Below are positions 6,640 through 41,271 of a stretch of 41,271 nt of DNA, piece by piece. This DNA comes from Acetobacteraceae bacterium (GTDB taxonomy: Bacteria > Pseudomonadota > Alphaproteobacteria > Acetobacterales > Acetobacteraceae). The stretch spans positions 1 through 41,271 of the forward strand of contig DAHWFB010000132.1 in NCBI GenBank assembly GCA_027326105.1, in the 5' to 3' direction. Below the pieces are notes generated by a model that did no database searches, had not been told where the DNA came from, and saw only the letters and a program-made list of their open reading frames with translations. A program made the position numbers and the translations under genes. Within the stretch, counting starts at the first letter, position 1, and each line of letters starts with the position of its first letter.

Positions 6640-7206
6640 TCAGACCTGGCGGATTTCCTTGTCCTTGTCGGTGAGCGCCTCGTCGATGCGCTTGATGAAG
6701 CGGTCGGTCAGCTTCTGGATCTCGTCCGCCCAGTCGCGCATCGCGTCCTCGCCGATCTGGTGCTTCTTTTCGAGGTGCTTGACCTGTTCCATCCCGTCCC
6801 GGCGGACGCCGCGCACGGCGACGCGGGCGCCCTCGGCGTAGCGGCCGGCGGCCTTGGCGAGTTCGGCCCGGCGCTCGGCGGTGAGCTGCGGGATGGGGAC
6901 GCGCACGAGCTGCCCGTCGGCCGCCGGGTTGAGACCGAGGCCGCAGTCGCGGATGGCGGTGACGACGGCGTTGACCAGCGCGCGGTCCCAGACCTGGACC
7001 GTGATCATCCGCGGCTCGGGCACCGCGATGGTGCCGACCTGGGGCAGCGGCATCTCCGAGCCATAGGCGGGAACCCGCACCGGCTCGACCAGGCCGGGGC
7101 TCGCGCGGCCGGTGCGCAGGCCCGCGAACTCGCGCTTGAGGGTTTCCATCGCGCCTTCCATGCGCTTCATCAGATCCTGCTTCAACGCATTGAGATCGGC
7201 GGACAT
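6640..7206 (-). CDS. frr: Ribosome recycling factor
   Basis: MEGAMETLKREFAGLRTGRASPGLVEPVRVPAYGSEMPLPQVGTI...; 188 aa; canonical synteny. Confidence 0.97.
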   Translation of the reverse strand: MSADLNALKQDLMKRMEGAMETLKREFAGLRTGRASPGLVEPVRVPAYGSEMPLPQVGTIAVPEPRMITVQVWDRALVNAVVTAIRDCGLGLNPAADGQLVRVPIPQLTAERRAELAKAAGRYAEGARVAVRGVRRDGMEQVKHLEKKHQIGEDAMRDWADEIQKLTDRFIKRIDEALTDKDKEIRQV

Positions 7207-38054: not shown

Positions 38055-40136
38055 TCAGAGGGTCCCGACGGTGCGGATGCGCGCGCGAGGAAAGATCTCG
38101 GCCTGGGCCAGGACGGGTGTGGCGGGGCGGATCCGTTCGACGATGGCGCGGACATGGAAGCGGATGGCGCCGCTGGTCAACAGCACCGGCGCGTCCCCGG
38201 CCGCGACCGCGGCTTCGAACACGCGGCGGAAGGCAGCCATGAACTCGGTGAGCCTGGCCGGCGTCAGCGCCAGTTGGCGGTCGTCGGGCGGGCCGACCAG
38301 CGCCTCGGAGAATGCGGTCTCCCATTCCGGCGAGAGGGTGACGAGGGGAACGTAGCCGCCGGCGCCGGTGTTCTGGTCGCTGATCTGGCGGGCGAGGCGG
38401 GTGCGCACATGGGCCACGATCGCGGGAATGGCCCGCAGGCTTCCGGCGCAGGCCTCCTGCACGCCTTCGAGGATGGTGGGCAGGTCGCGGATGGAAACGC
38501 GCTCGGCAAGCAGCGCCTGCAGCACCCGCTGCACCCCGCCCATGGAGATCTGGGAGGGTACCAGGTCGGCGATCAGCTTCTGCTGCTCCTTGGGCAAATC
38601 CTCGAGCAGCTTCTGGGTCTCGGCGAACGAGAGCAGCTCGGCCATGTTCTCCTTCACCAGTTCGGTGAGATGGGTGGTGAGTACGCTCGCCGGGTCGACC
38701 ACGGTGCAGCCGCGGAACAGCGCTTCTTCCTTCTGGGTGGGCTCGATCCACAATGCCGGAAGGCCGAAGGCGGGCTCCTGGGTGCGCTCACCGGGCAGAT
38801 CGGGAAGGTTGCCGCGAGGGTCCATCGCGAGCAGGCGGGTGGGGCGGATCTCCCCGCGCGCTGCCTCGATCTCCTTGATCCGGATGGCATAGCTGTCAGC
38901 GCCGAGCTGCATGTTGTCCTGGATGCGCACCGGGGGGAGCACGAACCCCATCTCGGCGGCGATGGTTCGGCGCAGCGATTTGACCTGGTCGGTGAGCCGG
39001 GTGGCGCCGCTGGAGGCGAGCGCGAGCAGGCCGAAGCCGAGCTCGATGCGCACCATGTCCATGCGCAATGCCTCGGTGATCGGCGGTTCGGCGGGCAGGC
39101 CGGCGGTGGTGGGCGCCGGTAGCGGATTGGCGTCGGTCGTGGGATGCTTGTGGCGCAGCCAGGCAGCCCCGCCCGACAGCCCGGCGAGGCCGAGGAAGGG
39201 CAGCATCGGCAGGCCGGGCATGAGCGCGAGCACGGTTGCGGCACCCGAGGCGAGCGCGAGCGGCTTGGCACTGCCGCCGAGCTGGGCGACCAGCGCCGCG
39301 TCGGCCGAACCTTCGACGCCGCCCTTGGTCACCACAATGCCGGCGGCGACCGAGACCAGGAGGGCGGGGATCTGGGAGACCAGACCGTCGCCGATGGTCA
39401 GCCGCGTGTAGGTGGTGACCGCCTCGTTGAACGGCATGCCGTGCTGGACGATGCCGATGGCCAGCCCGCCCACGATGTTGATGGCGGTGATGATGAGGCC
39501 GGCGACGGCGTCTCCACGGACGAACTTTCCGGCACCGTCCATGGCGCCGAAGAAGGCGGACTCTTCTTCGAGCTCCTTGCGCCGCCTGCGTGCCACCTTG
39601 TCGTCGATGGCGCCGGAGGAAAGCTCGGCGTCGATTGCCATCTGCTTGCCGGGGATGGCATCGAGGGTGAAGCGCGCGGCGACTTCGGCGATGCGCCCGG
39701 AACCCTTGGTCACCACCATGAAATTCACCACCAGCAGGATGGCGAAGATGATGAAGCCGATTACGACGTCCCCGCCCATCAGGAAGCCGCCGAAGGCGGC
39801 GACGACATGGCCGGCCGCCGTCGGCCCGTCCTGGCCATGCGAAAGCACGAGGCGGGTAGTGGCGATTTCGAGCGCGAGGCGAAGCAGCGTGGTGAGCAGG
39901 AGCAGCGTCGGGAAGCTCGTGAAGTCGAGCGGCTTGCTGAGGAAGAGAGCGACCATCAGCACCAGGATGGAGGCGGTGATGGAAAGCGACAGCCCGACAT
40001 CGATGAAAAAGGGTGGCAGGGGCAGGATGAGGATCGAGAGCAGAAGCACGACACCGAGCGCGAGCCCGACGTCGCTGCCGGGGACGTAGCGTCGCAGCGT
40101 CGAGGCAAAGCCGTCGAGGGTCGCGGCGGCGGCCAT
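38055..40136 (-). CDS. flhA: Flagellar biosynthesis protein FlhA
   Basis: ILPLPPFFIDVGLSLSITASILVLMVALFLSKPLDFTSFPTLLLLTTLLRLALEIATTRLVLSHGQDG...FVVTKGSGRIAEVAARFTLDAIPGKQMAIDAEL-type motifs. Confidence 0.97.
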   Translation of the reverse strand: MAAAATLDGFASTLRRYVPGSDVGLALGVVLLLSILILPLPPFFIDVGLSLSITASILVLMVALFLSKPLDFTSFPTLLLLTTLLRLALEIATTRLVLSHGQDGPTAAGHVVAAFGGFLMGGDVVIGFIIFAILLVVNFMVVTKGSGRIAEVAARFTLDAIPGKQMAIDAELSSGAIDDKVARRRRKELEEESAFFGAMDGAGKFVRGDAVAGLIITAINIVGGLAIGIVQHGMPFNEAVTTYTRLTIGDGLVSQIPALLVSVAAGIVVTKGGVEGSADAALVAQLGGSAKPLALASGAATVLALMPGLPMLPFLGLAGLSGGAAWLRHKHPTTDANPLPAPTTAGLPAEPPITEALRMDMVRIELGFGLLALASSGATRLTDQVKSLRRTIAAEMGFVLPPVRIQDNMQLGADSYAIRIKEIEAARGEIRPTRLLAMDPRGNLPDLPGERTQEPAFGLPALWIEPTQKEEALFRGCTVVDPASVLTTHLTELVKENMAELLSFAETQKLLEDLPKEQQKLIADLVPSQISMGGVQRVLQALLAERVSIRDLPTILEGVQEACAGSLRAIPAIVAHVRTRLARQISDQNTGAGGYVPLVTLSPEWETAFSEALVGPPDDRQLALTPARLTEFMAAFRRVFEAAVAAGDAPVLLTSGAIRFHVRAIVERIRPATPVLAQAEIFPRARIRTVGTL

Positions 40137-40148
40137 ACCGGTCCGTGC

Positions 40149-41165
40149 TCAGGCCGCGACGCCGGCGGTGGGCGGCGGCACCGGCACGCCCTGCGCGGCA
40201 TAGTCACGGAGCTTGTTGCGCAGCGCACGAATGGAAATCCCGAGGATGGTCGCCGCGTGGGTGCGGTTGCCGAGGCAGTGGCCGAGCGTTTCGAGGATGA
40301 GATCGCGCTCCACCTCTTCCATCTTGCGACCGACCAGGCCGGCCACACCCTCCGCCGCACCGTTGCCGGTGGCCGGGTATGCGGCCGCGGCGGGGGCCTG
40401 CGATGCAGCGGGGGCGAGTTCGATCGCGGCTTCGCCGATCTCCGCCCCGTCCGCGAGCAGCACGGCACGATGGATGATGTTCTCGAGCTCGCGCACGTTG
40501 CCGCGCCAGTGGTGGCGGGCGAGGCGGGCGAGCGCGCCCGCCGCGAGCGGGCGATAGGCGAGCCCGTTCAACTCCGCGAAGCGGCGGACGAAGTGCTCGG
40601 CCAGGGCGGGGATGTCCCGCGGCCGCTCGCGCAGCGGGGGCACCCGAAGCGTCACGACGTTGAGGCGGAAATAGAGATCCTCGCGGAATCGTCCGGCGGC
40701 AACCTCGGCGAGAAGGTCGCGGTTGGTGGTGGCAAGGATGCGCACGTTGACCTTCACCGGCACGCTGCCGCCGAGACGGTCGATCTCGCGCTCCTGGAGT
40801 GCACGCAGCAGCTTGGCCTGTAGCCGCACGTCCATCTCGCTCACCTCGTCGAGCAAAAGCGTGCCGCCGTGGGCGGCCTCGAACTTGCCGATACGGCGGG
40901 CGAGCGCGCCGCTAAAGGCGCCCTTCTCGTGGCCGAACAGCTCGGATTCGAGAAGGTTCTCGGGAATCGCGGCACAGTTCAGCGCGACGAACGGGCCGTT
41001 CGCGCGGCGCGAGCGGCGATGGATGTGCTGGGCGAGCACCTCCTTTCCGGTGCCCGACTCTCCGGCGATGAGCACCGAGGCATCCGCGCCCGCGACCTGC
41101 TCGGCACGGCGTACCGCGGCGAGCATGACCGGATCGCGGGCGATGAGGCTGTGGGAGTCCCCCGA
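40149..41165 (-). CDS. Sigma-54-dependent activator (FlbD-like), 5' end truncated at a fold-back junction
   Basis: VLIAGESGTGKEVLAQHIHRRS...FGHEKGAFSGALARRIGKFEAAHGGTLLLDEVSEMD...ILATTNRDL; C-terminal Fis-type HTH. The ORF-track start (GTG 41174) lies beyond the junction. Confidence 0.9.
   Translation of the reverse strand, partial: SGDSHSLIARDPVMLAAVRRAEQVAGADASVLIAGESGTGKEVLAQHIHRRSRRANGPFVALNCAAIPENLLESELFGHEKGAFSGALARRIGKFEAAHGGTLLLDEVSEMDVRLQAKLLRALQEREIDRLGGSVPVKVNVRILATTNRDLLAEVAAGRFREDLYFRLNVVTLRVPPLRERPRDIPALAEHFVRRFAELNGLAYRPLAAGALARLARHHWRGNVRELENIIHRAVLLADGAEIGEAAIELAPAASQAPAAAAYPATGNGAAEGVAGLVGRKMEEVERDLILETLGHCLGNRTHAATILGISIRALRNKLRDYAAQGVPVPPPTAGVAA
40702..40807 (-). repeat. 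Source arm of 106-bp perfect inverted repeat
   Basis: Reverse complement is identical base by base to 41166-41271 (position sum 81973); 40808/41165 is the first mismatch. Confidence 0.95.
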
Positions 41166-41271
41166 TGCGTGCACTCCAGGAGCGCGAGATCGACCGTCTC
41201 GGCGGCAGCGTGCCGGTGAAGGTCAACGTGCGCATCCTTGCCACCACCAACCGCGACCTTCTCGCCGAGGT
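41166..41271 (+). repeat. Inverted copy of 40702-40807 reaching the window end (fold-back)
   Basis: Plus strand reads RALQEREIDRLGGSVPVKVNVRILATTNRDLLAEV, identical to the minus-strand gene, including all third positions. Confidence 0.95.

Follow-up and report, generated by a model that had tools for sequence, protein, structure and literature searches.

The window examined here is the whole of contig C11, a stretch of DNA running from position 1 to 41271. Near its right end, the 3′ portion of flbD, the gene for a sigma-54-dependent flagellar regulator, occupies positions 40149 to 41165 on the minus strand and comprises 338 codons plus the stop codon, without the receiver-like N-terminus. The next gene downstream is flhA (38055 to 40136, minus strand), which we assigned by gene order and by sequence resemblance to relatives, where the same order is found. 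The native FlbD protein in the window starts SGDSHSLIARDP, and its first native codon is TCG at 41165 to 41163.

The contig then closes on an inverted copy of the interior of the same gene. Recomputation confirmed the central observation of the sequence-only reading: the terminal 106 bases, 41166 to 41271, are the reverse complement of 40702 to 40807 at 100% identity, with a 358-nt spacer between the two. The native arm (40702 to 40807, plus strand), which would have been the template for the fold-back, is internal coding sequence of the AAA+ domain and aligns with flbD of relatives. The loop (40808 to 41165, plus strand) is native flbD up to the proposed chimeric junction. An alignment of the 5′ side with FlbD of relatives, as that reading had suggested, reaches the serine codon at 41165 to 41163. 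The inverted arm itself (41166 to 41271, minus strand) ends with the contig, and the native continuation is found on contig C60. The best of the other inverted repeats between 38000 and 41271 span only 16 to 32 nt at 72 to 88% identity, which rules out chance as the source of the 106-nt repeat. The open reading frame beginning with GTG at 41174 has its start within the inverted arm, and the M-H-A that precedes the native protein consists of inverted-arm residues. Since native coding begins only at 41165 to 41163, this start is spurious, as had already been judged from the sequence.

FlbD of relatives was used to locate the part of the gene absent from the window. The N-terminal part of a relative's protein matched one place in the genome, the extreme left end of C60 (3 to 299, minus strand). 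Positions 1 to 299 of the minus strand of C60 encode FlbD residues 1 to 99 plus 2 nt, reading MRVLLIGSLAGELGQAARIAI...GAREFLPL followed by 2 nt of a proline codon. Beyond this piece lie FliN (316 to 597) and FliG (703 to 1695), in the order seen in relatives. The gap between the two FlbD pieces is exactly 14 residues in all six relatives, so that about 40 nt should lie between C11:41165 and the left end of C60 (14 × 3 − 2 = 40). The C60 piece faces the C11 junction in the correct strand and frame. Identity to the six relatives was 64 to 75% for the N-terminal part and 72 to 78% for the C-terminal part, and the relatives have the whole protein, including the receiver-like N-terminus, at lengths of 439 to 460 aa (L100, 446 aa; L018, 460 aa). 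The protein belongs with FlbD both by its alignment to relatives over the full length and by the orthologous arrangement of its gene with fliN and flhA. From these alignments, the chromosome most probably carries a single, ordinary, uninterrupted flbD whose pieces lie on C60 and C11. The 5′ end had been described as lost at 41165; this holds for contig C11 and not for the assembly, where C60 retains the 5′ piece.

Two further observations were made on these gene families. The distance between fliG and fliN on C60 (597 to 703, locus L186) is about 100 bp or less and contains no fliH, while in the relatives L018 and L100 the gene is present at this position. Searches of the draft with a relative's FliH and with the Pfam FliH model, which finds FliH in only 3 of 14 control genomes, gave no match; the gene may truly have been lost, its protein may have diverged, or the assembly may have collapsed here. 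A match to a paralogous sigma-54 regulator on another contig (C8:15161-16180, locus L013) contains one in-frame TAG; the gene may be a pseudogene, the sequence may be in error here, or the match may overrun the gene end.

We scanned the assembly for other repeats of this kind. The draft genome comprises 2,550,463 bases in 132 contigs (82.33% complete, 0.04% contaminated), and the scan covered 1.91 Mb of these 2.55 Mb and 229 of the 264 contig ends for exact inverted repeats of at least 30 bp with arms within 2.5 kb. Three were found, on C11, C49 and C71, and only those on C11 and C49 had a loop. Both looped repeats are flush with a contig end, the 106-bp repeat with its 358-nt spacer at the right end of C11 and a 59-bp repeat with a 351-nt spacer at the left end of C49. 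Within the same 1.91 Mb, the contig interiors held no looped exact inverted repeat of this size and spacing. Under random positions, the probability of two flush cases is on the order of 1e-8 by our own estimate from 229 ends and 1.9 Mb. The near-equal loops of 358 and 351 nt may reflect fragment length or coincidence. The C71 repeat (7162 to 7199, locus L197) is a perfect 38-bp palindrome without a loop and the only interior exact inverted repeat of at least 30 bp (arms within 2.5 kb) in the scanned stretches.

The second terminal fold-back (C49:1-59 and 411-469, locus L175) lies inside dapD. Here, 7 of the 8 nucleotides adjoining the junction match the switch site, consistent with microhomology. 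We looked in the assembly for the 5′ part of dapD, the expected partner of this fold-back, and did not find it; the evidence from a native continuation thus comes from C11. At the C11 junction there is no extra preceding homology (CCCCCGA versus AAGCTGC), and the native bases past 41165 fall within the gap of about 40 nt.

The contig ends also carry a signature of the assembler. Among the 229 of 264 ends compared, ten pairs share an exact 141-nt overlap, which points to a de Bruijn assembly with k = 141. Examples are C8 left with C10 left, C66 left with C85 left, and C63 right with C130 left; such pairs could be treated as graph neighbors and used to guide scaffolding. The default largest k of MEGAHIT is 141, a value beyond the range of SPAdes, and we take the assembler to have been, very probably, MEGAHIT. 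With lengths of 106 and 59, neither arm reaches 141, and a path back into its own contig would therefore go unrecognized at that k. We had considered whether 106 might equal k − 1 for k = 107 and dropped the idea, as the end overlaps show 141. Our literature search found no paper on the same artifact in MEGAHIT assemblies.

Taken together, we believe that 41166 to 41271 is almost certainly a technical artifact, a fold-back sequence at the contig end. The C11 end combines a terminal exact inverted copy, a non-inverted native continuation elsewhere and a further case of the same class at another contig end, with none in the scanned interiors. The sequence-only reading had left a choice between a chimera and a recent inverted duplication; the C60 partner and the C49 case favor the chimera, and the duplication is unsupported. 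In our proposed mechanism, a fold-back (inverted) chimeric DNA molecule would have yielded one or a few of the sequencing reads. In that molecule, the strand with its end at 41165 would have snapped back at 40807, or the polymerase would have switched template there, and copied itself back to 40702. If native coverage failed just past 41165, the assembler would have had no competing native path. The de Bruijn assembler, at k = 141, would then have extended C11 by following the chimeric read until it, or its fragment, ended, with re-entry into the same contig missed due to an arm of 106 nt being shorter than k. In the cell, flbD would continue as an ordinary gene into what is now the left end of C60. 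The chimera may have arisen during end repair, during amplification or in the assembler.

One variant of the artifact reading is that the assembler alone made the join, through its small-k iterations or local extension, with no chimeric molecule involved. The 141-nt overlaps indicate iterative de Bruijn assembly, in which such extension acts at contig ends, and the similar spacers of 358 and 351 could stem from a property of the library or its insert size. However, a join of this type requires shared sequence, the C11 junction has no extra homology ahead of it, and with arms below k, a molecule or read that carries the junction is the simpler source. We consider this variant rather unlikely; it takes up a small share within our confidence in the artifact, which covers the artifact as such.

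A biological origin fares worse. If flbD had truly been truncated in the population by an inverted duplication or inversion of very recent date, this would explain arms that are identical at every site, as in a very young event, and spontaneous inversions at short repeats do occur in bacteria (PMC3411829). However, the event would have to halt exactly where the contig ends, the one comparable case that the scan turned up (C49) likewise lies at a contig terminus, and the relatives' matches listed include no two inverted copies. Above all, the C60 end supplies an uninterrupted native partner in the right frame and at the distance predicted from relatives, and these facing ends across a small gap weigh most heavily against a real rearrangement. 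We regard such an event as very improbable. We give just as little credence to a real flbD fold-back inversion in a minority of the sampled cells, the reads of which were assembled where native coverage failed. A functional inverted repeat (the terminal inverted repeat of a mobile element, a phase-variation switch or an attenuator hairpin) would account for a long exact inverted repeat, but we rejected it as having a negligible chance of being correct, given that each arm lies within the coding sequence of flbD, the last contig base cuts the repeat off, the native continuation on C60 contradicts it and flbD of relatives runs through without one.

The terminal repeat of C11 holds nothing biologically new, and its consequences are for curation only. 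We recommend removing positions 41166 to 41271, leaving the GTG at 41174 unannotated as a start, and describing flbD as a gene divided between C60 and C11 as opposed to a truncated one. Searching draft genomes for exact inverted repeats that are flush with a contig end would be an inexpensive quality control.

The gene itself resembles FlbD of Alphaproteobacteria in the order fliG-fliN-flbD-flhA across C60 and C11 and in its receiver-like N-terminus, sigma-54 AAA+ domain and C-terminal region, all of which align with the relatives' full-length proteins. It differs in that the assembly here divides it between two contigs and omits about 40 nt of the sequence that joins them. For the fold-back, two known types of chimera offer a comparison. 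In multiple displacement amplification (MDA), one study found that about 91% of the single-end chimeras were inverted (ChimeraMiner, PMC6515389), and inverted template-switch chimeras during amplification are also described elsewhere (PMC4060946). The C11 end shares with these the inverted join and the loss of a spacer within a few kilobases, the inverted type being the dominant one in MDA; in contrast, nothing in the present sequence points to amplification of the sample, and there are only two cases in 229 contig ends. Hairpins formed in library end repair are a documented source of fold-back chimeric reads (MicroSEC, PMC8674242). As at the C11 end, a strand is folded on the same region, with the halves in opposite orientation and near the end of the read or fragment. 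However, the MicroSEC chimeras come mostly from formalin-fixed samples and have short hairpin distances (search range, 200 bases), whereas the C11 loop is 358 nt long and the fold-back has become fixed into the end of a contig.
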